From NCBI GenBank assembly GCA_014238965.1, contig JABAAC010000073.1, positions 1 to 35,517 on the forward strand: a stretch of DNA of 35,517 nucleotides, read 5' to 3'. Under the pieces are notes generated by a model. It saw only the letters and a program-made list of their open reading frames with translations. It had not been told where the DNA came from and did no database searches. Shown piece by piece: positions 243-26,036 of this stretch. The translations under genes and the position numbers were made by a program. Source of the stretch: Phycisphaerales bacterium (lineage in GTDB: Bacteria; Planctomycetota; Phycisphaerae; Phycisphaerales; SM1A02). How positions within the stretch are numbered: the first letter of the stretch is position 1; each line of letters opens with the position of its first letter.

Positions 243-2246
243 TCAGCAGGAGGAATGCTTGAATGTGGCGATTGCCATCACAGGGAAGTACAAGCGATAC
301 AAGTGATACCGCAGGTAAAACACACGTGGAAAACCAGTGCCCGTGTACTCCTCTTCGCACCATGAACCCGCTGGGTCGCCATCAGGGTTCTTGGCCGGAT
401 CGGCTGCATGAGCTTTAGACAATTGCGTATCAACAAGCCACTTGATCGCCCGCTCAACATGCGTGTCGCTGGTGCCAAAAATGGCCATCAGCGTCATCGC
501 TGCCCAGGCTGTCTGCGACGCGGTACTCCGACCAATGCCCTTTGTGGCAGGATCGATGTACGAGTGAGCCGACTCGCCGAACGACCCATCGGGGTGCTGA
601 ATGGAATGCAACCATCGCCCCGCCTCCTGAACCCAGGGGGCTTCTGGATGCACGCCGCACTTCAACGGACCAACCAGAGACTGCCACGTACCGTAGATGT
701 AGTTCACACCCCACCGACCAATGAACGCCCCATCTGCTGTTTGCTGCGACTGAATGTACGCAACGCCGCGTTGCACGGGCAGATCATCGATGGAATATCC
801 AAACCGTGACAAGCACTCAAGAACGCGCCCGGTAATGTCCGGACACGATGGATCCTGCATGGCATTGTGATCCGCAAACGGCACGTACTCCAGTACCTGT
901 CGATGCCTCGTCCGATCGAACGCCGCCCAACCTCCATCCTCATTTTGCATCGCCAACAACCACTGCACACCCCGCTCGCCCGCAGCAATTGCGCGATCAT
1001 CACCAGTTTGTTGCAAGGCCATAGCCACCTGCGCCGTGTCATCCACATCTGGATACCACGCATTCTCGTATTCGAAATACCAACTGCTCGCATTGCCTAG
1101 TGTGCGCACCGTGCTGGCCCAGTCACCGCGGAATGTGCACTCTTTAGCCAACAACCAATCGACTGCTGCGTCTACCGATTCATCCCCGGCTCGAAGGCCG
1201 CACGCACCCAAGGTGTACAGGGCGTAGCCCGTGTCCCACACAGGTGAAAAACACGGTTGAATCATGATGTGATCGCCTTTATCAACCATGAAATCATCGA
1301 GGTCATGTTCCGCTCGCTTCAACACAGGATGGTCCCGAGACCACCCCATGGCATGTAACGCGATCTGGAGGTAGACCATGGGCGGGAAAATGGCACCAAG
1401 TCCGATTGTTGCCGCCGAGCCGTCCTGTGAGGCACGATCAAGCATCCACTCTCGACACCGATCAAGCGATGCCTTTCGAAAGGGTGTTCCGCCAAACCTA
1501 TGAAGCGTTTTCATGCACCGGTCGGCAAAGCCGAAGAATGCCGCCCAACCCGGTGGCGCATCAACGGTTTGGCCAAGCGTGTTCCTTGCATGTTCGTTGA
1601 CGTACAACTCATCAATGCCGCTGGCCTGTGGCAACGACCGCGTGGGCCGCAAGGTTGTAACAATGGCAAGTGGAACGATCATCGTTCGGGTCCACGCACT
1701 AACCTTGCTTATGTGAAACGTGGACCACCGCGGCAGCAGCATGATTTCTGGTGGAATCGCTGGAATGGCATCCCAGGACACCTGCCCAAGACACGCAAGG
1801 TAGAAGTTGCTGAATGTATTGACACCCTCGGCCCCGCCCGCACTGAGTACTGCGCCGCGCGCTGCGGCCATATGTGGCGCATCGGGATCATCCCCCATCA
1901 GCTTCAATGCAAAGTAGCCCTTGACCGTTGCGCTGAGATCCATATCGGCATCGGGATACTGCCCCCATGTGCCATCTGGTCGCTGTTGCAGTCGTAGCCC
2001 TGCAGCGATTCGATCGAGCGTCTCCCGACCGGATCCGTCCATCGAGTCCGCATCCTCTTGGCCGAGGATGAACTTCATAAGCAGGTATTCGCTCTCTAGG
2101 ATGGAGTCCCCTTGCAGCAGGCCACACCAGTGGCCGTCCGTTCGCTGAACCTGCCCAAGTGCCCTCATCCCCGCATTCAGAGCAGTTGAGAGCTTTCGAG
2201 GTGAAACACCTGTACTAGGCTTGCCTTGTGCTGAAGTCGACGCCAT
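243..2246 (-). CDS. shc: Squalene-hopene cyclase
   Basis: This 667-residue protein has the normal length for bacterial squalene-hopene cyclases, which fold squalene into pentacyclic hopene, the hopanoid precursor, at the inner face of the membrane. The catalytic acid motif D-V-D-D is at residues 400-403. Several QW-type repeats are visible, including D-G-T-W-G near 91, D-G-G-W-A-A-F-D and D-G-S-F-G-E in the C-terminal half, and the ending G-T-G-F-P-R-V-F-Y-L-R-Y-H is typical. The ATG at 2246 is a reasonable start. No squalene-synthesis genes (hpnCDE) and no hpnH/G lie beside it, so it is a solitary hopanoid gene here. It diverges from the FIST gene with about 60 bases between the starts. Confidence 0.96.
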   Translation of the reverse strand: MASTSAQGKPSTGVSPRKLSTALNAGMRALGQVQRTDGHWCGLLQGDSILESEYLLMKFILGQEDADSMDGSGRETLDRIAAGLRLQQRPDGTWGQYPDADMDLSATVKGYFALKLMGDDPDAPHMAAARGAVLSAGGAEGVNTFSNFYLACLGQVSWDAIPAIPPEIMLLPRWSTFHISKVSAWTRTMIVPLAIVTTLRPTRSLPQASGIDELYVNEHARNTLGQTVDAPPGWAAFFGFADRCMKTLHRFGGTPFRKASLDRCREWMLDRASQDGSAATIGLGAIFPPMVYLQIALHAMGWSRDHPVLKRAEHDLDDFMVDKGDHIMIQPCFSPVWDTGYALYTLGACGLRAGDESVDAAVDWLLAKECTFRGDWASTVRTLGNASSWYFEYENAWYPDVDDTAQVAMALQQTGDDRAIAAGERGVQWLLAMQNEDGGWAAFDRTRHRQVLEYVPFADHNAMQDPSCPDITGRVLECLSRFGYSIDDLPVQRGVAYIQSQQTADGAFIGRWGVNYIYGTWQSLVGPLKCGVHPEAPWVQEAGRWLHSIQHPDGSFGESAHSYIDPATKGIGRSTASQTAWAAMTLMAIFGTSDTHVERAIKWLVDTQLSKAHAADPAKNPDGDPAGSWCEEEYTGTGFPRVFYLRYHLYRLYFPVMAIATFKHSSC

Positions 2247-2308
2247 TGGGGCACAGTGTAAATATCGCCGCCACGCGACGGGGCCAAATCCGGATACGCT
2301 TGCGAACC

Positions 2309-3511
2309 ATGCTTACCGGAACACGACGAACACAGGGCAACGCCGTCGCGGTGTCTGCGCTCAGCGAGCACCCGGACGGGCGTACGTCAATTGCTGAAGT
2401 CGCTGACACCCTTCATGAAGGCCTTCGCGGTGTTGCGCCAGACCTCGTTGTGCTCATGGCGAGCTTTCAGCACACCCGCATTCTTCCAGCTGCCGCAGCG
2501 GACCTTCGACGAACGCTCGGTGCAGGTCATCTCATTGGCGGGACAGCTGACACCGTCATGGGCGATTCCCGCGCACCAGAAGGCCGCCCCGCCGCTGTTG
2601 CCCTAGCGCTGCATCTGCCCAGCGCATCTGTTCGAGCATGGCGATCAACCCCTCGCAACCCCTTGCCACTATCTCGGCCCGATGACCTTCCTGGCACGGT
2701 TGGACTGAACGAGGAGACAGCTGGCGTACTGGTCATGGGCGACCCGTACACAACCCCCGCAAGTCGCATGGTGCCACTGCTGTCCACCTGCGCGGGTCGC
2801 CCAATTCCAATATTTGGCGGCTTGCTTTCAGGCGCTTCTCAGCCCGGTGGCAATTGTGTTCTGCTTGATGACCTTGTCCTCAACGAAGGATATGCCGGCA
2901 TAACGCTTGGCAACCTCGACATCGACGTCATCTCAAGTGAAGGCTGCAAGCCTATTGGCGAGCCAGTGGTCATTACCAAGTGCGATGAGAATGTCATTCA
3001 AGAGTTAGGTGGACATCCCGCAGTTGAATCGCTGCAGAACATTGTCGATGGACTCTCCGAATCAGACCAAAACCTCGCTCGCAGTGGACTGCTCGTCGGC
3101 CAGGCGATGGACTCCAACAAAGTCCGATTCGGACGAAACGACTTTGAACTTCGCGCGGTCATGGGCGTGCATCCTGAGAAAGGTATTGCCATTGCCGCTG
3201 TGCCGCGTGTGGGCCGAACCATTCAGTTTCACGTTCGTGAACCGCGTGCCGCCGATGAAGATCTTCGGCTACTGCTCGATGCTCAATCACTGGACGATGC
3301 GCCGCCGCTTGCGGTACTTGCCACGAGCTGCAACGCTCGTGGTCAGTCGTTCTTCGGTCACGAGGGACATGACGCGGGTGTGCTTCGGGAACGCCTAGAC
3401 AAGCCGCCGCTGGCTGGTTTTTACGCAGTGGGTGAATTTGGCCCTGTTGGGGACTCATCGATGGTGCATGGACAGAGCATCGTCGCTGCCATGCTCCGCA
3501 CTCGAAGTTGA
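2309..3511 (+). CDS. FIST-domain signal transduction protein
   Basis: About 400 residues. The N-terminal half (A-D-T-L-H-E-G-L-R-G, then D-L-V-V-L-M-A-S-F, G-A-G-H-L-I-G-G-T-A) matches the FIST_N domain. The C-terminal half (G-L-L-V-G-Q-A-M-D, F-x-L-R-A-V-M-G, and the ending G-F-Y-A-V-G-E-F-G-P-V-G) matches FIST_C. FIST proteins are thought to sense small ligands and often accompany chemotaxis or cyclic-nucleotide proteins, but no such partner is next to it here. I chose the ATG at 2309 because the in-frame GTG at 2228 would overlap the start of the divergent cyclase gene and adds an Arg-rich, poorly conserved leader. Its ligand is unknown. Confidence 0.85.
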   Translation: MLTGTRRTQGNAVAVSALSEHPDGRTSIAEVADTLHEGLRGVAPDLVVLMASFQHTRILPAAAADLRRTLGAGHLIGGTADTVMGDSRAPEGRPAAVALALHLPSASVRAWRSTPRNPLPLSRPDDLPGTVGLNEETAGVLVMGDPYTTPASRMVPLLSTCAGRPIPIFGGLLSGASQPGGNCVLLDDLVLNEGYAGITLGNLDIDVISSEGCKPIGEPVVITKCDENVIQELGGHPAVESLQNIVDGLSESDQNLARSGLLVGQAMDSNKVRFGRNDFELRAVMGVHPEKGIAIAAVPRVGRTIQFHVREPRAADEDLRLLLDAQSLDDAPPLAVLATSCNARGQSFFGHEGHDAGVLRERLDKPPLAGFYAVGEFGPVGDSSMVHGQSIVAAMLRTRS

Positions 3512-3550: not shown

Positions 3551-3642
3551 CGCGTTGGGCAAATCCCAAATTCTGATTGCCTTGGTTTGAGGCCCGCTCT
3601 ACGCTGAAGTGCTCACGATTCAGGAAAGAGGAGTATTTGAGC

Positions 3643-4782
3643 ATGTATGGGAAGACAGGAATCGCTTTGGCTGCCGCTGCCATGACAAGCCCCCTAGTTT
3701 GGGCTGGTGGCGTTGTTGTAGATGGCACCCGAGAGGCCGCGTACGGACCTCCCGCATCCACTCAGAACAACAGCACTGGCTTTGGCAACAATGACAATGA
3801 TCACATTGGCTACGCAGCGGGGTCTGAGCTCGATGGTGGCAGTGTCATTATTGATAACGGCAGCCTCTTCATCCACCTTGGCGGCAACCTTGAGAGTAAC
3901 TACAACAAGATTGAACTCTTCATCGATGCACGTGCTGGTGGCCAGAACCGAATTCTGGGCATCAATCCAGATGTCAGTTATGGCGCCCTGCAACGCATGG
4001 GAGACGATGGCTCTGGAAACGGCCTGACCTTCGATCTCGGTTTCGAGGCAGACTTCTACTTGGACATCACCTGTGGGGACAACGGCGCTGGCAACGGTAT
4101 TTACTCGTTTGTCAACTTCGCTGAACTACGCACCTTGGGTGACGGTATCGGCGGCTACGCTGGCAGCGGCAGCTCTTACAACCTCGACAATGTCGACTAC
4201 GTTGAAGCTTCCATTGGCGACTACGGAATTGCCGTGGCGATCAACAACAGTAATATCGCGGGGGTTATTGGCGGCGATGGCACTGACTGCGGCGCTCCAG
4301 ATGACCTGACGGTTACGACGGGAATCGAAATTGAAATCCCGCTGTACCTGCTGGACTGGGACTTCAAAGGCATCCCATTTGATGATGTCAAAGTGTGCGC
4401 GTTTGTGAATGCCGCTGACCACAACTGGGTTTCGAACCAAGTGCTCAATGGGCTCGGTGGCAGTGCCAACATTGGTGAGCCACGCCTCGTGAACTTTGCT
4501 GAGATTGATGGCAACCAATACTTCTCCATAGGCGATATTGCGGATCCATGTGTTCCAGCGACGGTAGGCGCGTGTTGCTTCGCCAACGGTGAATGCTGGG
4601 AAGGCGTCACTGCCGTGCATTGTGATACCAGCCGTGGCCTGTGGATTGGTGAAGACATGACATGTGCCGACTGCGATCTCGGTGGTGGTGATAACTGCCC
4701 AACAGATACCAACGGCGATGGGACAACGAACGTCGACGATTTACTTGACGTAATCAGTCACTTCAATGAATTGTGCCCCTGA
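3643..4782 (+). CDS. Secreted protein with cysteine module and dockerin-like C-terminal tail
   Basis: This is a 379-residue exported protein. The ATG at 3643 follows a strong GGAAAGAGGAG ribosome site and starts a signal peptide (MYGKTGIALAAAA...), with probable cleavage after V-W-A near residue 21. The body (about 24-305) is a beta-rich, Asn/Gly/Asp-rich domain with the phrases G-N-L-E-S-N-Y-N-K-I-E-L-F-I-D and G-G-Q-N. I associate these with uncharacterised planctomycete surface proteins. Residues 308-351 are a cysteine module starting G-A-C-C and containing six cysteines. The last 28 residues contain one Ca-binding loop, D-T-N-G-D-G-T-T-N-V-D-D, then L-L-x-x-I-x-x-F-N and a final Cys-Pro. 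This is the same tail as on the next gene. The tail probably sorts or anchors the protein outside the cell. A real terminator follows, so it is a single-gene unit. Confidence 0.8.
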   Translation: MYGKTGIALAAAAMTSPLVWAGGVVVDGTREAAYGPPASTQNNSTGFGNNDNDHIGYAAGSELDGGSVIIDNGSLFIHLGGNLESNYNKIELFIDARAGGQNRILGINPDVSYGALQRMGDDGSGNGLTFDLGFEADFYLDITCGDNGAGNGIYSFVNFAELRTLGDGIGGYAGSGSSYNLDNVDYVEASIGDYGIAVAINNSNIAGVIGGDGTDCGAPDDLTVTTGIEIEIPLYLLDWDFKGIPFDDVKVCAFVNAADHNWVSNQVLNGLGGSANIGEPRLVNFAEIDGNQYFSIGDIADPCVPATVGACCFANGECWEGVTAVHCDTSRGLWIGEDMTCADCDLGGGDNCPTDTNGDGTTNVDDLLDVISHFNELCP

Positions 4783-4900: not shown

Positions 4901-6961
4901 TTGTCGCTGAAAAAGCACGGGATATACTTGGCCGTTGTGAATCACATAGTTGAACATTGCATCTTGGCCAGCGTGGCAACAGTTGCTGCGTCATTGCACG
5001 GTGCGGCAACGGCCCAATCGTCACACGAGGGCATGGGGGCCAACGTCTGGATTGATGACGGTGGCTGGGGCACGTCCTTTCGCACATGGGCACCTCATGC
5101 TGACGTCGTCTACATCACGGGCGACTTCAACGATTGGACAACCAACACGCACCCCCTCGTGCACGAAGGTGATGGCATCTGGAGTTTGGACGTCCCTTCA
5201 GTTTGGGCTGGCACGCAGTATCAATTCGTCATGCTCAACGAGGGCAACACCTACTGGCGAAACGACCCGCGAGCCCGCAGCATGACGTCGAGCGATGGCA
5301 AGAGTGTTGTTGTCAATCCAAACCAATACTCCTGGCAACACGAATTCAGCATGCCCAACTGGAATGAGCTTGTCATTTATGAACTGCATCCCGGAACGTT
5401 CGGAGTCACGGATAACGGCATATTCCCAGGCACCTTTGACGGCATCGACGCGCATTTGGACCACATTTCCAACCTTGGTGTTAACGCGATCGAACTCATG
5501 CCGGTGGGAGAGTTTCCCGGCGATCAATCGTGGGGCTACAACCCGAGCCACATCTTCGCTATCGAGTCGCACTACGGCGGTCCTGATGGACTAAAGCGAC
5601 TCGTGGATGCTTGCCATGAACGCGGCATTGCGGTCCTCGTCGACGTCGTTTACAACCACCTGGGACCCAACGATCTCGCGGCGTGGCAGTTTGACGGATG
5701 GCAAGAGAACGAACTCGGCGGCATTTACTTCTACAACGATGACCGTGCATACACACCTTGGGGGGATACGCGGCCGGACTTTGGACGCGAGGAAGTGCGC
5801 AGATGGTTGCGCGATAGCGTCTTCAGTTGGTTTGACGAATATCACGTCGATGGCCTTCGGGTAGATGGTTGCCATTGGATCGAATGGACCGATGTTGGCG
5901 TGAATCCCGATGGCTGGTCGTGGATGCAGTGGATCAATGACGAACTTGATGCGGCGTACCCTGGCCGATTCATCTCCGCAGAGGATATGAGTGACAACCA
6001 TTGGATCACGAAGTCGACCGGCGAAGGCGGCGCTGGCTTTGACAGCCAGTGGGATCCCCACTTTGTGCATCCCATTCGAGAAGCTGTTGAAGGTGGTAGT
6101 GACGACTGGCGAAACATGTGGGCCGTGCACGACGCGATCATGTTTGCCTACAACGATGCCCCGATGCAACGCATCATTTTCACCGAGTCGCACGACGAAG
6201 TGGCCAATGGACGCCAGCGTGTTCCAGAGGCAATTTGGCCCGGCAACGCGGACTCGTGGTACTCGAAGAAGCGATCCACACTTGCTGCGGCAGTGCTCTT
6301 CACATCACCAGGCGTACCGATGCTCTTTCAGGGGCAAGAATTTCTAGAAGATGGCTGGTTCTCAGATGAGATCCCCCTCGATTGGGAACGTGCAGACCTC
6401 TATTCAGGCATCTCACGTCTCTACCGCGACCTGATTCACCTGCGGCGAAATCTAGCTGGGAACACCCGAGGGCTTACAGGCGAACATGTCAATGTGTACC
6501 ACGTGAACGACTGGGACAAAGTTATTGCATGGCACCGCTGGTTCAACGGCGGGGCTGGTGACGATGTCATTGCGATTGCAAACTTCAAGAACGAGACGTG
6601 GGATAGCTATCGCATCGGCTTGCCCTCAGCAGGCACCTGGCATTGTCGTTTCAACAGCGATTGGGTTGGCTACGACGACTCTTACGACGACCACCCAACG
6701 TGGACGGTAGAAGCCCAAAGCGTGCCTTGGAATGACATGCCCTTCAGTGCCGAAATCTCACTCGGCGCATACACCGCTTCGATCTTCTCACAGTCGCCCC
6801 CATGCATGTGGGACCTCAATGACGATGGCATCGTCGGTGTAGATGATTTGCTGCTGATCATTGCCCATTGGGGCACGGATGGCGGTGACATTGATGGCGA
6901 TGGAACAACCGACGTAGACGATCTACTATCTATCATCAATGCTTGGGGGAACTGCCCATGA
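4901..6961 (+). CDS. Exported GH13 alpha-glucan branching-enzyme-like protein with dockerin-like tail
   Basis: 686 residues from the TTG at 4901; GTG 4937 is an alternative, as no ATG is available in frame. A signal-peptide-like stretch ends at A-T-A-Q near residue 39. Residues 50-140 look like a CBM48 module (F-R-T-W-A-P, G-D-F-N-D-W). The GH13 barrel shows all four family regions: D-V-V-Y-N-H (248-253), G-L-R-V-D-G with nucleophile D322, I-S-A-E-D with acid E361, and T-E-S-H-D-E-V with D432. This pattern resembles 1,4-alpha-glucan branching enzymes or TreZ-like enzymes acting on alpha-1,4/1,6-glucans. Branching enzymes are normally cytoplasmic, so the signal peptide is unusual. The tail (about 635-686) has two Ca loops (D-L-N-D-D-G and D-I-D-G-D-G) and ends W-G-N-C-P. 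The exact reaction (branching, hydrolysis or transfer) is unknown. Confidence 0.85.
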   Translation: MSLKKHGIYLAVVNHIVEHCILASVATVAASLHGAATAQSSHEGMGANVWIDDGGWGTSFRTWAPHADVVYITGDFNDWTTNTHPLVHEGDGIWSLDVPSVWAGTQYQFVMLNEGNTYWRNDPRARSMTSSDGKSVVVNPNQYSWQHEFSMPNWNELVIYELHPGTFGVTDNGIFPGTFDGIDAHLDHISNLGVNAIELMPVGEFPGDQSWGYNPSHIFAIESHYGGPDGLKRLVDACHERGIAVLVDVVYNHLGPNDLAAWQFDGWQENELGGIYFYNDDRAYTPWGDTRPDFGREEVRRWLRDSVFSWFDEYHVDGLRVDGCHWIEWTDVGVNPDGWSWMQWINDELDAAYPGRFISAEDMSDNHWITKSTGEGGAGFDSQWDPHFVHPIREAVEGGSDDWRNMWAVHDAIMFAYNDAPMQRIIFTESHDEVANGRQRVPEAIWPGNADSWYSKKRSTLAAAVLFTSPGVPMLFQGQEFLEDGWFSDEIPLDWERADLYSGISRLYRDLIHLRRNLAGNTRGLTGEHVNVYHVNDWDKVIAWHRWFNGGAGDDVIAIANFKNETWDSYRIGLPSAGTWHCRFNSDWVGYDDSYDDHPTWTVEAQSVPWNDMPFSAEISLGAYTASIFSQSPPCMWDLNDDGIVGVDDLLLIIAHWGTDGGDIDGDGTTDVDDLLSIINAWGNCP

Positions 6962-7938
6962 CCCTTGCGCGATGGACAACCCATTCTCGCAAAGGCTTCT
7001 CATTGGTTGAGCTGATGGTGGTCGTAGCGATCATCGGTATTCTGGCGTCGCTCCTCCTTGTCAGCATTTCCAAGATGGAAACGTCGGCCTACATGTCAAC
7101 TGACTTGTCGCATCACCGCATGATAGCTAAGGCCAGTGCCACCCATGCAACTGACAACGAAAATCGATTGCTGCACCCGCGCACTGAAGAAACCAACCAG
7201 AATCAGATTAATGACATGGTCGGTCATCAATTTGTGCGGGAGATCATCGACAACGAAATGATTGATCAGGCGGTGATTGACGCCAATAAACGACTTTGGG
7301 TCAGAGCATATGACGAGAGCGGGATCATTCGACTCACTGACGCGGACACTGGACTGCCTGAGACGAGCCGCCAAGAGTTAACCCGCGCGTTGTCTGACGG
7401 TGCTGCATGGCAGTACATGGATGGTGATCCGTCAATCTACCGTTCACCGCTGGACCCAACGAAGATCACGCGGTCCTATTCGTTGAATGCCTTTGTCGGC
7501 ACGGAACTTTGCCCTGATGAATGGTTTGGTACTGGCTATACCGACCCCTTTTATAATGAGTTCGCCATGTACGCCGTGGGAACACCCACGCTGTCGCGTA
7601 TTCCCCAGCCCTCGAACACGTTCTTCTCGATTACCGAATGGGATCCAGGGCACAACTCCAGTGTGCCACCTGGTCGCAACCACCTCGGCTTCATGTTGCA
7701 CCCCAATCAGGCCACGGGATATGCCAACTACCAAATCTGGCACGATATCCCGGGCTTCTGGTACGACGGCAATTACACCATTTCCATGGTGGATGGATCA
7801 ACGAAATCCGTACCGGTCACTGACCCAAATCTAGTGGATGAGCTCGATGAACATCGCGTGGTCTATGACGGCGCAGATCTGAGACAGATTCAAGGGTGGA
7901 TGCTGCCGGGCGTGCTTGAGTACCGATTCGACAACTGA
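6958..7938 (+). CDS. Prepilin-type N-terminal cleavage/methylation domain protein
   Basis: 326 residues. The ATG at 6958 overlaps the stop of the GH13 gene (ATGA), so translation is probably coupled. A short basic leader ends at R-K-G; the prepilin peptidase site is G13/F14, with the conserved Glu at mature position 5 (F-S-L-V-E). A hydrophobic helix (L-M-V-V-V-A-I-I-G-I-L-A-S-L-L-L) follows. The rest is a pseudopilin-like globular domain with a late D-G-S strand motif (I-S-M-V-D-G-S). Planctomycetes carry large families of such proteins, of mostly unknown function, thought to be exported through a type II secretion/type IV pilus-like machine. The GspE-type ATPase at 9387 could belong to that machine. 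The gene converges on lysine transaminase, with 15 bases between stops. Confidence 0.88.
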   Translation: MTLARWTTHSRKGFSLVELMVVVAIIGILASLLLVSISKMETSAYMSTDLSHHRMIAKASATHATDNENRLLHPRTEETNQNQINDMVGHQFVREIIDNEMIDQAVIDANKRLWVRAYDESGIIRLTDADTGLPETSRQELTRALSDGAAWQYMDGDPSIYRSPLDPTKITRSYSLNAFVGTELCPDEWFGTGYTDPFYNEFAMYAVGTPTLSRIPQPSNTFFSITEWDPGHNSSVPPGRNHLGFMLHPNQATGYANYQIWHDIPGFWYDGNYTISMVDGSTKSVPVTDPNLVDELDEHRVVYDGADLRQIQGWMLPGVLEYRFDN

Positions 7939-7953
7939 CAATTCACAAAGCGC

Positions 7954-9291
7954 TTACACCGACGCGGTCGCTGCAGCAGCCTTCACAGATGCTTCGAATC
8001 GATCGAGTAATTCATCTGCTTCGCTGGTAGTCATAATCATCGGCAGACGGAATCGAAGCGATTCCACACCACATGGTAGCGCGATCGCCTTGCGTTCAAA
8101 CAGTGCTTTAAGCACTTTGTTGCGGCGATCAGCATTGTCAAACGTGCACGCAAGGATGGTGCCCATGCCGCGCACGCTTGTGAATTGGCCTGTCTCGCGA
8201 CTGATTCGACGCATGCCCGCTTTAACGTGCTCACCCAGAGCGGTCACCTTGGCCATAAGGCCGCCTTCGATGATCAACTCGATAAAGCGCTGGCTTCGAA
8301 CCATGTCCACCAAATTGCCGCCCCAAGTTGAATTGATTCGACTCGATGTGGTGAACACGTTGTGCTCAACTTCGTCTACACGGCTGCCAGCATAGATGCC
8401 GCAGACTTGGGCCTTCTTGCCAAAGGCCACGACGTCTGGAGCGACGCCGGCATGTTGCCAGATCCATGGCTTTCCAGAACCGAAGAAGCCAGTTTGGACC
8501 TCGTCAAAGCACAAGAGGCAGTCAAACTCATCTGCATAGCCCCGAAGCGCCCGCATGAATTCTGGCCGGAAGTGATTGTCGCCACCTTCGCCTTGCATGG
8601 GCTCGATCAGAATGCCTGCGACATGGCCGTGTGTGCCATCATCGTTACGCAGTACATGCTCGATTTCGCTGCACGCTCGCGCTTCCTCAGCCTCAATGTC
8701 ATTGCACACTTCACCATCGAGATCGAACACACAATATGGATTGTGTACCCGCGGCCATTTAAACTTCGGGAACAGCCCGACCTTGTCCGGAAGGGTATTG
8801 GTGACACTCATCGTGTACCCAGTTCGACCGTGGAACGCTTGCTTGAAATGCAAGATCGACAAATCAGAACAATCCGCCAAATAATCACTTCGACCAAGCC
8901 GCCGCGCTTTCCAATCGAACGCCGTCTTCATCGCGTTCTCAACGGCTAATCCACCACCGGCTACCCAAAAGTGATGTGAAAATCCCTCTGGGGTCACGTG
9001 TGTTGCAAAGGTGTCTACAAACTCCGCGAGTTCTGCTGTGTACACGTCGGAGTTGGACAAATTGTGCTTCGCGGCTCGTTCAAGTGAGGCCACGAATGAG
9101 GCATCTTCAAAACCAGGGTGGTTATAGCCAAGGGGCCATGACGCAAAACAAGTGAACGCGTCGAGGTACTGCTCGTTGGTCACCGCATCGTGAATCCAAC
9201 AGCCTTTGGACTGCTCCAGATCAACCACCAGTGGATAGCCATCCACAAGTTGGTGTCGAGCGAGATTGGCAAGTACCTCTGTGGGATGCAT
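7954..9291 (-). CDS. lat: L-lysine 6-transaminase
   Basis: 445 residues, a class III PLP-dependent aminotransferase. It matches the lysine epsilon-aminotransferase family, which transfers the 6-amino group of L-lysine to 2-oxoglutarate to give allysine/piperideine-6-carboxylate and glutamate. Diagnostic segments are F-T-C-F-A-S-W-P-L-G-Y-N-H-P, C-F-D-E-V-Q-T-G, the PLP-lysine block A-F-G-K-K-A-Q-V-C-G (K292 the likely Schiff-base residue) and R-I-N-S-T-W-G-G-N-L-x-D-M-V-R. I chose the ATG at 9291 because AAGGAG sits about six bases upstream; the longer frame from 9330 has no such site. The product could feed lysine catabolism, an osmolyte or a secondary metabolite. No partner dehydrogenase is adjacent. 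Confidence 0.92.
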   Translation of the reverse strand: MHPTEVLANLARHQLVDGYPLVVDLEQSKGCWIHDAVTNEQYLDAFTCFASWPLGYNHPGFEDASFVASLERAAKHNLSNSDVYTAELAEFVDTFATHVTPEGFSHHFWVAGGGLAVENAMKTAFDWKARRLGRSDYLADCSDLSILHFKQAFHGRTGYTMSVTNTLPDKVGLFPKFKWPRVHNPYCVFDLDGEVCNDIEAEEARACSEIEHVLRNDDGTHGHVAGILIEPMQGEGGDNHFRPEFMRALRGYADEFDCLLCFDEVQTGFFGSGKPWIWQHAGVAPDVVAFGKKAQVCGIYAGSRVDEVEHNVFTTSSRINSTWGGNLVDMVRSQRFIELIIEGGLMAKVTALGEHVKAGMRRISRETGQFTSVRGMGTILACTFDNADRRNKVLKALFERKAIALPCGVESLRFRLPMIMTTSEADELLDRFEASVKAAAATASV

Positions 9292-9386
9292 GTGGGCTCC
9301 TTGGGCTGAAAATGCGGCTCCTTGAGCCACCTAGACCGTGCATCCTACCGACTTCTGATGCCGATCCGGCGGTCCTGAGCTGTAGG

Positions 9387-10985
9387 ATGGAAGACATGGG
9401 CATGGACACCCTTTTGCTGGACTCCGGGGCTGTTACCGAGACGCAAGTCGAGGCTGCGCGGGAGGAAACTATCCGCACGGGCGAGCGAATCGACCGAGCG
9501 CTGGTCCGAATGGGGCATGTGTCCCCCCGAGCAGTGCTCGAAGCGCTCGCGGGCCAACTAGCTATGGACATCGTTGATGTGTCGGAGATCCAACTCACCG
9601 ACACGATTGCAGAACGTATCCCGTCTCGATTGGTGTTTCGTCTGCAATGTGTTCCGCTCTCAGATGACGGAGAGCGACTGCGTATCGCAACGAGCGACCC
9701 ACTGCAGCTTGCCGAGCTCGATGAACTCAGGCTGCTCACTGGGCGAGACATAGAGCTTGTGCTCGCAGACGACGATGAACTTCGAAGCCTAATCCGGCGA
9801 CACTATGGCGTGGCTGGAGACACGCTTGAAGCGCTGGGCAGCGGCCAAGTTGTTGCACAACCAACGGAGTCATCAGAAGACGAAGCGCAGGAAGCGAGTG
9901 TCATCAAACTCGTTCGAGATCTGCTCGTGGAAGCAATCCGCGAGCGTGCCACGGATGTCCATATTGAGCCATATGAACATAGCCTGTCTATTCGATATCG
10001 CATCGACGGCGTACTCTCGCCCGCAGGCGTCCCATCGACAGTCAATCGATTTCGAGATGCCATTACCAGCCGATTAAAAATCATGGCCGGACTGAACGTC
10101 GCCGAACGCCGACGTAGCCAAGATGGCCGCCTCGCTTTCCGCCATGAAGGTCGCGAATTCGACCTGCGTGTATCCGTCATTCCCATGGTGCACGGTGAGG
10201 GCATTGTGCTTCGGTTGCTTGAATCATCAGTAGCGCTCATGGGGTTGGAGCAATTGGGCATGGAGCCCGACACGCTGTTGCGATGGGATGATCTCATCGC
10301 ACGGCCCCACGGCATTTTGCTTGTCACGGGCCCCACGGGGTCGGGCAAATCAACAACGCTGTACGCTTCGCTCAACCGAGTCGTCAGCGAATCAGTCAAA
10401 GCCATCACCATCGAGGACCCCGTGGAGTACCAACTTCAAGGTGTCAATCAGATTCCAGTGTCTCCAGATACGCTAGATTTCGCCGATGGCGTTCGGGCCA
10501 TCCTCCGACATGACCCTGACATTGTCATGGTGGGTGAAATCCGCGATCGCGAGACCGCTGAAGCGGCCATTCAGGCCTCATTGACGGGCCACCTCGTCTT
10601 TTCCACGCTCCACACCAATGATGCCCCCTCCGCCATGCCACGGCTTCTTGACATGGGTGTGGAGCCCTTCTTGGTTGCATCAAGTGTCGAAGGTGTCTTG
10701 GCTCAGCGGCTCGTGCGTCGTATCTGCACCCAATGCAGGGCTCCTGGGACTGGGTGCCGCGACTGTCGGCATACGGGTTTCAGAGGCCGCGTAGGCCTAT
10801 ATGAGCTGCTTGAACCCGATGAGCAACTGCGTGATCTCGTCTTGGCCCGCTCAGCGTCCCCTGTGCTAGCCAAAGCTGCCTTACAAGCCCAACGGCTCAT
10901 TCCATTGAAGTCGTCTGGACGTCAGAAAATCGATGCTGGCCTCACCACAGAGCAAGAAGTCGCCCGAGTCTCTTACGGGGGTTGA
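9387..10985 (+). CDS. GspE/PilB-family type II secretion or type IV pilus assembly ATPase
   Basis: 532 residues from ATG 9387 (ATG 9396, better spaced from the TAGGATGGAAG stretch, is equally possible). Residues 1-140 form the T2SSE_N/MshEN-like domain. The ATPase follows with Walker A G-P-T-G-S-G-K-S (315-322), the Asp box around T-I-E-D-P-V-E-Y, Walker B D-I-V-M-V-G-E-I-R-D and the His box S-T-L-H-T-N-D-A. A four-cysteine zinc site (C447, C450, C457, C460) precedes the G-F-R-G-R-x-G-L-Y-E-L-L end motif. The spacer between the cysteine pairs is only six residues, much shorter than in typical GspE. The enzyme powers pseudopilus or pilus assembly from the inner face of the membrane, and the prepilin-like genes in this window are candidate clients. 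No GspF/G or secretin gene is next to it. Confidence 0.92.
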   Translation: MEDMGMDTLLLDSGAVTETQVEAAREETIRTGERIDRALVRMGHVSPRAVLEALAGQLAMDIVDVSEIQLTDTIAERIPSRLVFRLQCVPLSDDGERLRIATSDPLQLAELDELRLLTGRDIELVLADDDELRSLIRRHYGVAGDTLEALGSGQVVAQPTESSEDEAQEASVIKLVRDLLVEAIRERATDVHIEPYEHSLSIRYRIDGVLSPAGVPSTVNRFRDAITSRLKIMAGLNVAERRRSQDGRLAFRHEGREFDLRVSVIPMVHGEGIVLRLLESSVALMGLEQLGMEPDTLLRWDDLIARPHGILLVTGPTGSGKSTTLYASLNRVVSESVKAITIEDPVEYQLQGVNQIPVSPDTLDFADGVRAILRHDPDIVMVGEIRDRETAEAAIQASLTGHLVFSTLHTNDAPSAMPRLLDMGVEPFLVASSVEGVLAQRLVRRICTQCRAPGTGCRDCRHTGFRGRVGLYELLEPDEQLRDLVLARSASPVLAKAALQAQRLIPLKSSGRQKIDAGLTTEQEVARVSYGG

Positions 10986-11111: not shown

Positions 11112-12485
11112 ATGGCCATTCGCACATCGGCTGGTACAGGCGTCATCGTCTCACTTGTCGTATTCGTTCTGCTTACCGTGCTACTCGCTGTGCTGTCGAT
11201 ACTGCTCTGGGGGCGGCTACGAGAAGCCCAGCAGTCTGTCGACACGGCCGATCAACACCTTGGTGAGTACGCATCAGCATCCGAGCGAACCGCTGACTGG
11301 ATGGACCAGATCAAGAACAGCAGCGGCCGAAGTTCAGTCGTGGGTTTCTTACATGATGAAAATGGGGACCTCAAGGGCCTGCTCGGCGGCACTGCTAGCG
11401 AGTCAACCGACTCCATCCGCACACGCCTGACCACGCTTGGCCTGTCAACGGACAGTACCGCGTTCGACCAGATCTCCATGTTGTCTCGCAAACTCGCTGA
11501 AACGAAGACTGCTCGAAGTGAGTTAGATCGGCGTGTCATCACGGCCGAAGGCGCCGTGTCTGATTTGCAAGGGCGCTTGGCGGATGTTGAAGCCCAGCAC
11601 GAAGCAGTTGCCCAAGCCGCGGCACGTGAGCTCGAACCATTCAGAGATGCCGAATCGCGTCACGATGCTCGGCTCAGTGAAGCCATCGATGCATTTAAGC
11701 AAGCCGAAGCGCGCACGAAAGATCGTCTTTCCGAAGATAAGGCAGACCTTGAAGATGAAAACGATGAAATTCGTCGACGAAATACGATTCTCACGTCACG
11801 GCTCACGGATCTTGAGTCACTGTATGCACGTGACCGCATCGAGCCAACGGACCCGAGCCTACTGAGCGACGGCCGTGTCATCGAAATTGTCGGAAGCGAC
11901 CGCGTCTACATCGACCGTGGTCGTCAGGACCACGTCGTCTTGGGCATGACCTTTGAAATCTATAATGATGCAGCGCAGATTCGTCCCGACGAAGAAGGTC
12001 GAATGCCACGAGGCAAGGCCAGCGTTCAGGTGCTCAAGGTGGGCGAAACCACCTCGACGGCCAAGATCACTCGATCGGATCTTCGGCAACCAGTGTTGGC
12101 CAACGACGTCATCGCTAACGCCATTTACGACCCGAATTACACGTTCAAATTCATGGTGCATGGCAAATTCGATTTGAATCAGGATGAAGCCGCCACAGAT
12201 GAAGAGGCTGGCTACTTACGTGACCGCATTCAACGCTGGGGCGCAGAAGTCGTTGAGGGCGACGCATTGCCCGGCGACTTGGACTTCTTAGTGCTGGGAC
12301 AGCAGCCTGTCGAGCCAGATCGTCCACAAGGCGCATCACTTTCGCCTCAGGAGTGGCAAGACTACACGCGCAAACGACAGGTCTACGAGACCTATCAGAA
12401 CCTGCTCGATTCGGCGCGTGAAGCTCGAGTACCAGTGCTCAATCAACACCGATTGGATATTCTCACTGGCCGCGCTGGTCACTGA
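11112..12485 (+). CDS. Membrane-anchored coiled-coil protein with BRCT-like C-terminal domain
   Basis: 457 residues, with GGAG about nine bases before the ATG. One transmembrane helix (about 11-33) is followed by a long charged, Ala/Glu/Arg-rich coiled coil (about 120-240). Residues 252-338 look like a small beta domain (D-G-R-V-I-E-I-V, V-Y-I-D-R-G, V-V-L-G-M-T-F-E-I-Y). Residues 345-453 follow the BRCT pattern: a strand F-M-V-H-G-K-F, a helix, G-A-E-V-V, then D-F-L-V-L-G-Q-Q-P, a further helix, and R-V-P-V-L-N-Q-H-R-L-D-I-L. BRCT-like domains usually bind phosphopeptides or DNA ends. One behind a membrane anchor is unusual, and the assignment rests on pattern only. I cannot name the protein. 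It lies in a co-directional run with the GspE-like and LpxL-like genes. Confidence 0.75.
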   Translation: MAIRTSAGTGVIVSLVVFVLLTVLLAVLSILLWGRLREAQQSVDTADQHLGEYASASERTADWMDQIKNSSGRSSVVGFLHDENGDLKGLLGGTASESTDSIRTRLTTLGLSTDSTAFDQISMLSRKLAETKTARSELDRRVITAEGAVSDLQGRLADVEAQHEAVAQAAARELEPFRDAESRHDARLSEAIDAFKQAEARTKDRLSEDKADLEDENDEIRRRNTILTSRLTDLESLYARDRIEPTDPSLLSDGRVIEIVGSDRVYIDRGRQDHVVLGMTFEIYNDAAQIRPDEEGRMPRGKASVQVLKVGETTSTAKITRSDLRQPVLANDVIANAIYDPNYTFKFMVHGKFDLNQDEAATDEEAGYLRDRIQRWGAEVVEGDALPGDLDFLVLGQQPVEPDRPQGASLSPQEWQDYTRKRQVYETYQNLLDSAREARVPVLNQHRLDILTGRAGH

Positions 12486-12516
12486 GCGGCCGCAGCGCCC
12501 CAACGGGGTTCTTCGC

Positions 12517-13560
12517 ATGGCTGGAACACGATCGCTTACTCGAGATCTTGCTGAGTACATCCCGGCACGAATTGTTGCCTCGGTCATCAAGTGCTTTCCC
12601 CCGGAACGCAATCAGGCCACGGCTGATGCTGCGGCGTTGGTGTACGCGCGACTTTCACCCCGACGCGTGGCACGAGCCCGCGACAACGTCAACCGATCGT
12701 TCCCCGAGTGGACACCTGAGCAGTCACATCACATCGCCATAGATTCGATCAAACACCTATTTCGCCTGGCGTTAGTAGACGCCATGCAGATGGATCGGTT
12801 CATTCATCCGGATCAATGGTGGAAACATGTCGACATGCGAGATGCCCGTTCAGCACACCAAACGCTCATTGGTGAGCAGCCCGCCATCATGGTGACGGGC
12901 CATCTAGGAAACTGGGAGCTGATGGGGTATACCCTTTCGATGCTTGGTGTTCGCCTGAACGCTATTGCTCGGCCGCTTGATAATCGGCTACTGAATCGCT
13001 GGTTGTTGGGTATTCGTGAAGCATGGGGGCTACGCGTGCTTACCAAGTTTGGCGCGTCTCAAGAGATGCAGTCCATACTTCAACGTGGCGAACACCTCGG
13101 CTTTATCGCTGACCAGAACGCCGGTGATCGCGGTACGTTTGTTCCCTTTTTTGGTCGCTTGGCATCCGCCTACAAATCCATTGCGCTTCTTGCAATCACG
13201 CAAAATCTTCCGGTTGTGGTGGCTGCTGCTTTCCGAACTGCCCCAGGACTGCACTATCAATGGCGTGTGCAAGAGGTCATTGAGCCGCACCAGTGGGCTG
13301 ATGTAGACAACCCCGTGTACTGGCTCACCGCACGCTATACGTGGGGACTGGAGCAATTGGTTCGCAGTGAGCCCAGCCAGTTCTTGTGGCTGCATCGACG
13401 GTGGAAGAGCCGGCCCCGCCATGAGCAAGAGGGTGCCACCATGCCTCCGCTGCTTGAGCGTCAAATTCAAGGACTCAATTGGTTGTCAGATGACCAAAGG
13501 CTCGCAATCATCGAGCAGTCCAACGCAGAAGCCTTTGACCAGCCTAAGGCCAAACCCTGA
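12517..13560 (+). CDS. LpxL/HtrB-family lipid A (Kdo2-lipid IVA) acyltransferase-like protein
   Basis: 347 residues. The catalytic H-x4-E motif appears as H129-L-G-N-W-E134 (T-G-H-L-G-N-W-E-L-M-G). It is followed by the family blocks R-P-L-D-N-R-L-L, F-I-A-D-Q-N-A-G-D-R-G, V-P-F-F-G-R-L-A-S and, near the end, F-L-W-L-H-R-R-W-K-S-R-P. Members transfer acyl chains to lipid A or related glycolipids at the inner membrane, so the gene supports a Gram-negative-type outer membrane. The start at ATG 12517 lies 31 bases after the preceding stop; the frame is open further upstream but would overlap that gene. The enzyme could also act on a different saccharolipid, as the substrate cannot be read from the sequence. 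Confidence 0.88.
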   Translation: MAGTRSLTRDLAEYIPARIVASVIKCFPPERNQATADAAALVYARLSPRRVARARDNVNRSFPEWTPEQSHHIAIDSIKHLFRLALVDAMQMDRFIHPDQWWKHVDMRDARSAHQTLIGEQPAIMVTGHLGNWELMGYTLSMLGVRLNAIARPLDNRLLNRWLLGIREAWGLRVLTKFGASQEMQSILQRGEHLGFIADQNAGDRGTFVPFFGRLASAYKSIALLAITQNLPVVVAAAFRTAPGLHYQWRVQEVIEPHQWADVDNPVYWLTARYTWGLEQLVRSEPSQFLWLHRRWKSRPRHEQEGATMPPLLERQIQGLNWLSDDQRLAIIEQSNAEAFDQPKAKP

Positions 13561-14660: not shown

Positions 14661-15383
14661 CTATGCAGCGAGGCGATCTCGCAAAGCTACGTCGATAGCG
14701 ATCCACTGGCCACCGCCTGGGCCATCAAAGACAACCGACTCAACACCCTGTCCACGCAAGCGAAGCAGTATGGCGCGAAGATCCTCTGGCTCTAGGGCAA
14801 CGACACATGCATCTGGATCGCTCACGAGCCGTGGGCCCATCGTCGAAGCGCGAGCAGTCGCTCGGTGCATGTCCGTGAACAAACGCAAACAAGGTTGATC
14901 GTTGACAATTTCAACCAATGGGGCTGATGGGGAAACAGGGTCTCGGAGCACAAAAAGCTGGCCAATTGGCTGGACATTGGTCACCTCCCCGGCCTGCCGG
15001 AGCGCACCGGCGACCGCTTCAAGCGGTAGCCGAACACTGTCTGGTCCATGATTGATACGGACCCAGTTGAGTCCTCGCCCGGCAAGTCGCGTCAGCAGTG
15101 CCGCCATATGGGATGGTGAACAACTTGCGGAGCAGACGTCCGTGTCAAGCGCCCCGGCAATCCACCCATGGACGGCTTGATTGGCCTTTCGCCGAGTAGT
15201 GAAGATCAAAAGGACTGGCACGTCGTCTTCGAGCACGAGGTAGGGCATTGGGTCACCGTCGCAACCAAGCACCGGCAGATGCCATCGCGCATGGGCTGCG
15301 CATCGCTCCACAGCCATTCGAGGGCCCGTGGCATTGCTGATTCGAGGGGCGGCATTCAGACGATCATTGTCGTGCTTGGGCAT
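14661..15383 (-). CDS. Unknown protein with an internally duplicated SseB-like domain
   Basis: 240 residues, cytoplasmic, not recognised by name. Two halves align to one another. Residues 47-124 have the order strand P-Y-L-V-L-E-D-D-V-P-V-L-L-I-F-T, then L-L-T-R-L-A-G-R-G-L-N-W-V-R-I. Residues 155-233 have P-L-V-E-I-V-N-D-Q-P-C-L-R-L-F-T, then I-L-L-R-L-R-G-Q-G-V-E-S-V-V-F. The pattern (short strands with a V/L-F-T turn, then a helix and a V-x-F strand) resembles SseB N-terminal-type domains, but this is a weak resemblance. It lies 66 bases downstream of the ABC transporter ATPase on the same strand and may share its transcript. Nothing ties it to transport. Confidence 0.6.
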   Translation of the reverse strand: MPKHDNDRLNAAPRISNATGPRMAVERCAAHARWHLPVLGCDGDPMPYLVLEDDVPVLLIFTTRRKANQAVHGWIAGALDTDVCSASCSPSHMAALLTRLAGRGLNWVRINHGPDSVRLPLEAVAGALRQAGEVTNVQPIGQLFVLRDPVSPSAPLVEIVNDQPCLRLFTDMHRATARASTMGPRLVSDPDACVVALEPEDLRAILLRLRGQGVESVVFDGPGGGQWIAIDVALRDRLAA

Positions 15384-17354: not shown

Positions 17355-17948
17355 CTATTGTCCGGTGAGTGATTCGATGCGATCTTGAACGATTGCGTCC
17401 AGATTGGCCTGATCAACCTCGATCTCAAGATCCAATTGCTCAAGATGCTCATGCAGCCGTTGCGCAAAGAGCACGCGATTATCGAGGTTGGTCATGACCT
17501 GTGCACGCACCATCGCTTCCAGTTGGGCCCGAAGCGAGTCACGCATCACGGCATTCTGTGGGCTGGCATCCATCGCTGCACGACGGGCTTCAACGGCCAG
17601 AGCTGCCACAGTTGCTTCCAGATGCAGCTCTCGGATCTTGTGTTGATACAGCTCGGGGTCATCGCCCCGAAGGTCAGCCAAACCAGACAACATGGGGCCA
17701 AGTCGCCGAAGCACGATTTCAAAGCCCTCTGGGTCGAGCTGGCACATGGACCGAAGTTGCCCCGCAAGCGATGGATCGATTTGATCGGCAACATCCAAAT
17801 AGCGATCAATGAAGGCTGACTTATCGGTATTGGCTGCATCGCTGGCATCAACTTGGACACTGCTACGAACGCCCATAAGGAGCGAGCCAACAACAGCAAC
17901 TGTCATCCACAACCCCAATGGGTGAGCCTGTCGTTTCAATTGGGTCAT
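17355..17948 (-). CDS. Exported or membrane-anchored alpha-helical protein of unknown function
   Basis: 197 residues. A hydrophobic segment at about 12-27 (L-W-M-T-V-A-V-V-G-S-L-L-M-G-V) acts as signal or anchor. The rest is almost wholly helical and charged, with many Leu, Gln and Arg (for example L-H-L-E-A-T-V-A-A-L-A-V-E-A-R-R). Its size and helicity recall periplasmic stress sensors of the CpxP/ZraP kind, but the L-T-x-x-Q motif is not evident. The ATG overlaps the stop of the preceding membrane protein gene (17945-17948), placing it third in the ECF sigma operon. It is therefore a candidate sensor or target of that sigma module. Confidence 0.7.
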   Translation of the reverse strand: MTQLKRQAHPLGLWMTVAVVGSLLMGVRSSVQVDASDAANTDKSAFIDRYLDVADQIDPSLAGQLRSMCQLDPEGFEIVLRRLGPMLSGLADLRGDDPELYQHKIRELHLEATVAALAVEARRAAMDASPQNAVMRDSLRAQLEAMVRAQVMTNLDNRVLFAQRLHEHLEQLDLEIEVDQANLDAIVQDRIESLTGQ

Positions 17949-23779: not shown

Positions 23780-25368
23780 ATACGCGCTTTCTCGCGGCGC
23801 AACTTGGCCGTGTTGCGCAACTTCTTGGCGCTGTACTGAGCAGTATTGCCGTGCTCTTTGTCATCGTCCCTGGGGAGGGCATGACCTTCATCGATGTCGG
23901 CGAGTTGTGCTTGTTGGCCACTGGCGCTGGATCACTGATGCTGGGCACTGGACTGTGGCTCTATGGGCGAAGTGCACTACAGATTCGAACCACAGACCTC
24001 CAAGGTGATGCCTTGGTTCGGCCCTATCGAATGTCGAGGCGCGAAGCAGCGTTGCTGACGACTGTTACGTGGGTGGTGGGCGGATTGATCGCAGCCACAC
24101 CATTCCTACTGTGGGCAGCATTTGCGACAGATGTGCCCAGCGACCACCCATTTCACAGCAGCATCAACTGCTTCTTTGAATCCATCAGTGGGCTGACGAC
24201 AACAGGCGCAACTGTGCTTACAGACATCGAATCGCTCCCCCGCTCGTTGTTGTTTTGGCGGTCGATCATCCAGTGGCTTGGTGGCCTGGGCATTCTGGTG
24301 TTGTTCGTTGCGATTCTCCCTGGCCTTGGCATCGGTGCAAAGCGCCTGTTCCGAATTGAGTCACCAGGGCCAACGCCCGATGGTCCACGGCCATCCGTGC
24401 GAGATGCAGCTCGAACGCTATGGCGGATCTACGTCGGATTGACAGTCGTGATGTTCCTGCTGCTAATGATTGGCGGCATGGGTTGGTTTGATTCAGCCAA
24501 TCACACGTTTACCACGCTGGCAACGGGTGGTTTCAGCACACGTAATGCCAGCATCGCCCGACCCGAAACCATGTTTGTAGAAGCGGTCATCGTCGTCTTC
24601 ATGGTGCTGGCGGGTTCGAATTTCGGCGTGCTGCATGCGGTCTTCAAAGGTCGATGGCGATCCATGCTTCAAGACACCGAATTTCGCGTGTATTTGGGGC
24701 TACTTGCCATCGGGAGCATCGTGACAACCATTGCCTTGGTGACGGCCGGGGACGGAGTTGTGCTCTCCAATGGCGACACTATGGCCGCGACCACTGGGGA
24801 GTCCGCCCGGGCCGCGGTGTTCACGGTCGTCTCCCAACAGACCACAACTGGATTCAGTACCTACAACTGGGACTTGTGGCCCTTCGCGGCCAAGGCATTC
24901 ATCGTATTGCTCATGTTTGTCGGTGGATCGGCCGGGTCAACCGCCGGCGGCGTGAAGGTCATCCGAGTGTGGATTGCATTTCGCGTGTTGTGGGCGGAAC
25001 TGGAGCGATTCTTCCGGCCAGATGTTGTGCGGCCGCTACGCGTGGGCGGGCAGATTGTTGACGATCGGCAGCAATTAATGGTGATTGTCTACGTCTTGGG
25101 CACGGTTGCGCTGCTCGGACTGGGTGCGGTTGCATTGATGGCCCTGGAATCCGAGGCGACCGACATCACGTTCGCCACGGCAGCGACGGCGAGCTTGGCG
25201 ACCATTTGCACGGTGGGCCCTGGCATGGAGGCCGTGGGCGCTATTCGGAATTATGCCTGGTTCAGCGATGCATCAAAGCTGCTGCTGTGCCTGTTAATGC
25301 TCATCGGCCGCTTGGAAGTATTTGTCATCTTGGCGTTGTTGCAGCCCAAGTTCTGGCGGAGCCAGTAA
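23776..25368 (+). CDS. trkH: Trk potassium uptake channel protein TrkH
   Basis: 530 residues, highly hydrophobic, starting with GTG inside the trkA stop (GTGA). The four pore segments of the SKT family are visible: S-G-L-T-T-T-G-A-T, T-L-A-T-G-G-F-S-T, Q-Q-T-T-T-G-F-S-T, and a fourth, looser A-T-I-C-T-V-G-P-G. The glycine in each selectivity position is present or replaceable. With TrkA it forms the inner-membrane K+ uptake system used in osmotic balance. It converges on nuoI, with 22 bases between stops and no obvious terminator. Confidence 0.95.
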   Translation: MNTRFLAAQLGRVAQLLGAVLSSIAVLFVIVPGEGMTFIDVGELCLLATGAGSLMLGTGLWLYGRSALQIRTTDLQGDALVRPYRMSRREAALLTTVTWVVGGLIAATPFLLWAAFATDVPSDHPFHSSINCFFESISGLTTTGATVLTDIESLPRSLLFWRSIIQWLGGLGILVLFVAILPGLGIGAKRLFRIESPGPTPDGPRPSVRDAARTLWRIYVGLTVVMFLLLMIGGMGWFDSANHTFTTLATGGFSTRNASIARPETMFVEAVIVVFMVLAGSNFGVLHAVFKGRWRSMLQDTEFRVYLGLLAIGSIVTTIALVTAGDGVVLSNGDTMAATTGESARAAVFTVVSQQTTTGFSTYNWDLWPFAAKAFIVLLMFVGGSAGSTAGGVKVIRVWIAFRVLWAELERFFRPDVVRPLRVGGQIVDDRQQLMVIVYVLGTVALLGLGAVALMALESEATDITFATAATASLATICTVGPGMEAVGAIRNYAWFSDASKLLLCLLMLIGRLEVFVILALLQPKFWRSQ

Positions 25369-25390
25369 CTCGAACGCCAATCTCTGCAAG

Positions 25391-25948: not shown

Positions 25949-26036
25949 GAGGCGTACATGATATCGATTTGAGCATCACTCCTGAACCAGTCGTTGAATT
26001 TCACCTGAGTTGCAGCCTGAGGGGTACCATCGAGTG

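Follow-up and report, generated by a model that had tools for sequence, protein, structure and literature searches.

A membrane-anchored protein with four parts

The window analysed here, a stretch of 35,517 nucleotides, is one entire contig of the 2.6 Mb draft genome of a Phycisphaerales bacterium. On its forward strand lies a gene whose product would lead from a membrane anchor through a coiled coil and a beta domain into a putative BRCT domain at the C-terminus (Table 1). An earlier note on this DNA had described a membrane helix and a long coiled coil ahead of a BRCT-like domain, and this layout is borne out by the open reading frame, by the hydropathy of the N-terminal helix, which is strongly hydrophobic, and by the profile matches. 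The D-F-L-V-L-G and V-P-V-L motifs that the note had singled out are indeed present. The base given for the start of the BRCT-like domain, 12145, is one off the codon of residue 345, which begins at 12144. The middle beta domain and the DxDxDG-type loop were absent from that description.

Table 1. Features of the family gene and its immediate neighbours, in window positions
Feature	Position	Strand	Basis
GspE/MshE-type secretion/pilus ATPase, upstream	9231-10985	+	PF00437, E 3.7e-118
Family gene, 457 aa, coding for the four parts below	11112-12485	+	Open reading frame
Single N-terminal membrane helix, about residues 10-33, predicted N-in/C-out	11139-11210	+	Hydropathy, charge count
Coiled-coil-type stretch, about residues 120-239	11469-11828	+	Mostly coiled-coil-type Pfam/NCBIfam matches, all weak
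FlgT_C/TsaP-type beta domain, residues 263-334	11898-12113	+	PF16538 and TsaP matches
Putative BRCT domain, residues 336-457	12117-12482	+	hhalign to LigA BRCT; PF00533 in relatives
Loop of DxDxDG type, EF-hand-like, between BRCT beta1 and alpha1 (residues 354-365)	12171-12206	+	Pattern in relatives
D-F-L-V-L-G, BRCT beta3, residues 391-396	12282-12299	+	D391 and G396 identical in all 58 aligned relatives
V-P-V-L, BRCT beta4, residues 440-443	12429-12440	+	P441 identical in all 58 aligned relatives
LpxL-type lipid A acyltransferase, directly downstream	12517-13560	+	PF03279, E 1.4e-35

The boundaries of the BRCT elements were set by visual comparison with aligned LigA BRCT domains and do not come from a structure; they place beta1 at residues 345-351, alpha1 at about 362-376, beta2 at 379-381, beta3 at 391-396, alpha2 at about 425-437, beta4 at 440-444 and alpha3 at 446-452. 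MreC also follows a plan of membrane helix, coiled coil and beta domains. Only this general layout is common to MreC and the window protein, and no MreC profile is among the Pfam matches of the window protein at E<=10.

The start codon of the LpxL-type gene, 12517, was chosen by eye, and the Pfam run covered 12508-13560. Farther upstream of the family gene, a pseudopilin-type gene (N_methyl) occupies 6943-7938, and an aminotransferase gene lies on the other strand between it and the ATPase gene. The region 243-3511 holds a squalene-hopene cyclase frame on the reverse strand and a FIST-domain frame on the forward strand, which overlap by 19 bases (2228-2246) when each is read at its longest. 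Four further frames of 197-401 residues (3577-4782, 14661-15383, 17355-17948 and 25322-25972) have no Pfam match at E<=1e-5.

Relatives throughout the Planctomycetota

A search with the window protein alone matched 60 of 61 genomes, its own included. Of the others, 2 belong to its genus, 33 to its family (34 searched, G033 being the exception) and 24 to its order (24 searched). Scanned with the same single protein, genome contigs gave one relative, 69% identical, from a Phycisphaerales bacterium; viral contig scans found no further usable relatives. The 61 family proteins extracted from the first genome set comprise 60 distinct ones (L001 is identical to L003). After exclusion of L001, of L026, which is cut by a contig end, and of L037, a fused frame, 58 relatives remained, whose C-terminal domains form set A1 and whose full lengths form set A2. 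A second set of 40 more loci, 21 of them from outside class Phycisphaerae, contributed 41 family proteins. We divided their domains into A6, 16 outside-class domains that do not carry the calcium-type loop, and A7, the 25 others (19 in-class domains and 6 loop-bearing ones from outside the class). A8 is a profile of the beta domain plus the BRCT domain, built from 47 hand-chosen diverse rows, of which 11 come from the 58 relatives and 36 from the second set of 41 proteins.

The family is present in nearly all sampled Planctomycetota genomes. The A2 profile matches all 150 genomes of the class (G159 only at 7.7e-4) and, with weak matches included, 240 of 246 genomes of the phylum. Some of these weak phylum matches may reflect the coiled coil, and we prefer the A8 count, which is 243 of 246 genomes at E<=1e-5 and 223 at E<=1e-10 (the latter by hand), counted per genome from matches that may cover one domain or both, and with some of the searched genomes also supplying A8 rows. 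Every one of the 133 genomes with at least 90% completeness and at most 5% contamination has an A8 match. The A1 profile by itself finds 23 of 149 phylum genomes, and the claim of a wider spread therefore rests on A2 and A8.

Many outside-class genomes contain more than one family match, often two that are neighbours; closely placed matches occur, for example, at G283:C64, G408:C144, G355:C66 and G298:C42. The f94 genomes, together with G238, G258, G275 and other f66 genomes, have weak A8 matches only (about 1e-6 to 1e-11); these otherwise complete genomes may carry divergent or partial versions of the family.

A far-drifted BRCT domain

Taken singly, the window copy is silent. Its C-terminal domain has no Pfam match at E<=10 and so lies below the curated cut-off of PF00533, the full-length protein matches none of the BRCT models of Pfam and NCBIfam, and a single-sequence search of the PDB returned only weak malate dehydrogenase matches (E 1.4-1.5). 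The case for a BRCT domain therefore rests on the relatives. When the 58 A1 domains were scanned one by one, 16 matched PF00533 at E<=10 (best 9.6e-6), 3 matched BRCT_2 and 2 matched PTCB-BRCT. Fifteen other families matched one to three members each, and we take these matches as noise except for Dockerin_1 (2 members), which, like the EF-hand models, is of a calcium-loop type. Against PDB sequences, the best matches of the A1 profile are a DNA ligase chain (0.067) and RFC1 (0.092 and 0.10), with EF-hand proteins next, from 0.15, an order that is suggestive and not significant.

To compare profiles directly, we used 27 LigA BRCT domains from 27 of 31 loci in Phycisphaerae genomes, picked by a pattern that demands Ser/Thr-Gly. 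Aligned to these by hhalign, A1 reached a probability of 95.3% with a score of 48.9 over 63 columns, and an E of 2.4e-8 that refers to one pairwise comparison. The maximum among 100 column shuffles was a probability of 1.9% and a score of 17.3; the reversed alignment reached 0.15%, three other parts of the protein at most 0.72% against BRCT, and A1 at most 1.7% against six other 100-residue slices of LigA. Fifty shuffles in blocks of 10 columns, a size at which motifs stay whole, climbed as high as 87.4% (E 3.7e-6, score 37.6).

The loop-less A6 domains resemble plain BRCT domains. PF00533 matches 15 of the 16 (best 2.1e-11), and the outside-class member L108 passes the curated cut-off of 21.3 with 24.7 bits. 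Searched against the PDB, the A6 profile returns DNA ligase chains, namely 2owo (which we take to be E. coli DNA ligase) at 1.3e-9, 1l7b at 2.1e-8 and 1dgs at 4.7e-8, as well as RFC1 at 9.5e-8, and A1 aligns with A6 at a probability of 98.6% (E 8.6e-16). Among the A7 domains, 17 of 25 match PF00533. When 79 phylum genomes were scanned with PF00533, 77 gave matches above the cut-off. By hand count, such a match lies inside a family protein in at least 34 of the 74 genomes from outside the class; in the five in-class genomes the single match is LigA, a sign of how far the Phycisphaerae version has drifted. NCBIfam LigA models touch 13 of the 47 beta-plus-BRCT stretches, as expected if the BRCT part alone is common to both. 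AlphaFold runs with a two-sequence input (the window protein and L001) gave low-confidence models, with pLDDT values of 38.9 for residues 229-457 and 56.6 for the BRCT domain alone.

The earlier note had read a BRCT-like domain here and had proposed a comparison with BRCT profiles. Homology is strongly supported by that comparison with LigA and by the Pfam and PDB matches of the relatives, some of which exceed the PF00533 cut-off, and we regard the C-terminal domain of the window protein as almost certainly homologous to BRCT domains. An unrelated alpha/beta domain with a look-alike order of motifs would account for the silence of the window copy and for the high probability still reached by block-shuffled columns; it is highly improbable in view of the profile-profile match with its controls, the above-cut-off matches of the relatives, the A6 match to a DNA ligase structure and the link between A1 and A6.

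With the LigA BRCT domain (PF00533; 2owo, 1l7b), the family has in common the order of strands and helices, the beta1 glycine, the glycine pair before beta2, the D-F/Y-x-V-x-G of beta3, the alanine of alpha2, and the hydrophobic beta4 and last helix. In the family, by contrast, an insert of about 25-30 residues separates beta3 from alpha2, a DxDxDG-type loop follows beta1, the pocket Ser/Thr is mostly missing, and the domain sits on a membrane-anchored protein instead of a ligase.

The phosphate pocket is mostly lost

Phosphate-binding BRCT domains use a serine or threonine in front of the beta1 glycine. In A1 this position is held by His, Phe or Tyr in 57 of 58 domains, by Ser in one and never by Thr; the window protein has His. 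Ser/Thr occurs in 2 of 16 A6 domains and in 3 of 25 A7 domains, one of the three without the glycine, which leaves 93 of 99 domains overall without it. In LigA, Thr or Ser fills the position in 32 of 32 BRCT stretches at 30 of 31 loci (L091 was unmatched), as recounted with a profile built from the 27 pattern-picked domains. Within those 27 domains themselves the figure of 26 holds by construction, because the selection pattern demands Ser/Thr-Gly. The GSK-type stretch of LigA also has no counterpart in the family alignment.

Because the pocket Ser/Thr is lost, canonical binding of phosphoproteins or DNA ends by the family's BRCT domain seems unlikely, and the earlier note's idea that the protein could tether chromosome or phosphoproteins is unsupported where the usual pocket is concerned. 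A receptor for phosphopeptides or 5'-phosphate DNA that works through this pocket would be in keeping with membership of the BRCT family, and 6 of the 99 members do retain the residue. Set against the 93 that do not, the full retention in LigA and the unmatched GSK-type stretch, we consider such a receptor very improbable.

An EF-hand-like loop in the first turn of the domain

In the alignment, most class members and six outside-class members carry a DxDxDG-type stretch after beta1. Across A1, its position 1 is Asp in 58 of 58 domains, position 6 is Gly in 50 and position 12 is Glu or Asp in 54; 40 of the 58 show the full pattern D.[DN].[DN]G.....[DE], which is shared with EF-hand and other DxDxDG loops (PF13202, PF00036). 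The shorter pattern D.[DN].[DN]G falls within residues 11-40 in 43 of the 58, where residue shuffling expects 0.135 per 58, and it occurs in 18 of 25 A7 domains, 0 of 16 A6 domains and 0 of 27 LigA BRCT domains. Four EF-hand models match one to four A1 members each in single scans, among them EF-hand_5 with 4 of 58 (best E 4.6e-4).

Unlike EF-hands, which form helix-loop-helix pairs, the family has a single loop, set into a turn of the BRCT domain. EF-hands nearly always have glycine at position 6. The window copy, D-L-N-Q-D-E-A-A-T-D-E-E, keeps D1, N3, D5 and E12 and differs from them in its glutamate at position 6. The conservation of this pattern makes it fairly probable that the loop binds Ca2+.

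The middle beta domain resembles FlgT and TsaP

FlgT is an extracytoplasmic protein. The FlgT_C model (PF16538) matches the window protein at E 4.3e-4 with 21.1 bits, below its cut-off of 27, and it matches 43 of the 58 relatives at E<=1 (best 2e-8) and 9 of 47 in the wider diverse set at E<=0.01. Searched against the PDB, the A8 profile finds TsaP (3jc8) at E 3.3e-7 in two stretches, the second being the stronger. The beta domain is thus related in sequence to the C-terminal region of TsaP and to the C-terminal domain of FlgT; to this the family adds a membrane anchor, a coiled coil and the BRCT domain. Unlike TsaP, the window protein has no LysM domain (none at E<=10 in Pfam). According to one paper, TsaP binds peptidoglycan and belongs to the secretin sub-complex of the pilus (PMC4471445).

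The likeness raises the possibility that the protein is a planctomycete counterpart of TsaP and FlgT, a periplasmic ring or collar of a type 4 pilus, a type II secretion system or a flagellar machine, to which the BRCT domain was added as a docking module. In line with this, the pseudopilin-type gene and the GspE/MshE-type ATPase gene lie upstream of the family gene in the window, and such an ATPase gene precedes the family gene on its own strand at 10 of 100 loci, the window's included (directly upstream in the nine others). At one further locus it lies downstream on the other strand, so that it adjoins the family gene in only 11 of 100 loci. Together with the missing LysM domain and the lack of any secretin match at E<=1e-5 among the 20 other window proteins scanned, this low count speaks against the collar, which we hold to be possible but doubtful. 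It is the sharpest rival to a periplasmic scaffold and really a special case of one.

Membrane topology and neighbouring genes

One hydrophobic helix near the N-terminus was found in 100 of 101 proteins, the exception being L119, whose start is uncertain. The earlier note had proposed a topology prediction for this helix. With the N-terminal amine counted, the charge rule assigns 95 of 101 members as N-in, 6 as ties and 0 as N-out, in agreement with an exported C-terminal part; without the amine the agreement weakens to 71 N-in, with 24 ties and 6 N-out. The margin in the window protein is one charge, and we treat the charge rule as support and not as proof. Cysteines are absent after residue 40 in 34 of the 60 distinct members of the first set and in 22 of the 41 proteins of the second.

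Because of the helix charge, the TsaP-like domain and the few cysteines, we place the BRCT domain on the periplasmic side, where it probably resides. Our confidence is not higher because the charge rule leans on the N-terminal amine. Reuse of the fold outside the cytoplasm, which the earlier note had raised as one option, would thus be the likeliest placement.

The reverse topology would leave the coiled coil and the BRCT domain in the cytoplasm, tethering DNA or repair proteins to the membrane. Bacterial BRCT proteins known hitherto are cytoplasmic DNA enzymes, and the neighbourhood offers this arrangement something as well: polA is a divergent neighbour at 10 of the 100 loci, and among the 21 from outside the class, 11 have polA, coaE or rho upstream in divergent orientation (identified by Pfam on five representatives). 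These neighbours fit a cytoplasmic, DNA-linked role, although they may be there by descent only. The six N-out assignments made without the amine point the same way. With the amine counted there are none among 101, and the beta domain belongs to an extracytoplasmic family; the DxDxDG-type loop, the scarcity of cysteines and the lost pocket Ser/Thr likewise argue against a cytoplasmic BRCT domain, and we judge the reverse topology unlikely.

Across the family, an LpxL-type gene directly follows in the same orientation at 36 of 100 loci, with a median gap of 55 bases, and at none of the 21 outside the class. In the gap at L032-L035, a GC-rich hairpin followed by T's can be seen by eye, and a common transcript is therefore not assured at those loci. 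Since the neighbours differ between classes, they do not fix the function.

One frame, the fused 831-residue frame of L037 (G059), was set aside as a hint to topology. It crosses a terminator-like hairpin, recognised by eye, into a downstream acyltransferase-like gene. Nine relatives compared with it have a stop codon at the end of the gene, whereas L037 has none; it is either a real fusion or an assembly effect.

A possible docking scaffold in the periplasm

Starting from what was computed, namely the domain order, the BRCT homology, the spread, the loop pattern and the missing pocket residue, we propose a model whose inferred elements are the periplasmic side, Ca2+ binding, multimerisation, a partner and a scaffold role. 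The N-terminal helix would anchor the protein in the inner membrane, and the coiled coil would span the periplasm, giving length and multimerising. The beta domain would dock to, or pack into, an envelope assembly. The BRCT domain would take hold of a partner protein elsewhere than at the phosphate pocket, and where the loop is present, as in the Phycisphaerae and some lineages outside them, bound Ca2+ would stabilise the beta1-alpha1 turn.

We lean slightly towards a protein-docking scaffold as the role of the family. The more specific proposal, an inner-membrane-anchored periplasmic scaffold in which the BRCT domain is a Ca2+-stabilised docking module, is to our minds the best explanation overall, and we are evenly divided on whether it is correct. 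More tentatively still, a near-universal periplasmic BRCT protein of the Planctomycetota that has lost its pocket, has a calcium loop in some lineages and carries a TsaP/FlgT-type ring domain might be a calcium-responsive tether that organises the phylum's unusual envelope or its pilus and secretion machines.

To our knowledge, BRCT domains have been described only inside the cytoplasm or the nucleus. Each domain type of the protein is already known, and what would be new is the combination, the predicted location and the spread. None of these is described among the matches listed from an open-access collection, and a term search finds no 'BRCT' in the main texts of two planctomycete papers (PMC10632474, PMC8567305). 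Some members may already carry a BRCT label in public databases. A periplasmic BRCT domain throughout the phylum, if true, would mean that the fold serves as a general protein-docking module, and planctomycete cell biology would gain a concrete, widely conserved envelope protein for study.

P441 and R447, which bound residues 441-447, are invariant in the 58 relatives of the window protein. Proline and arginine of this kind are, as far as we know, atypical for BRCT domains, and the two residues may mark a partner-binding face.
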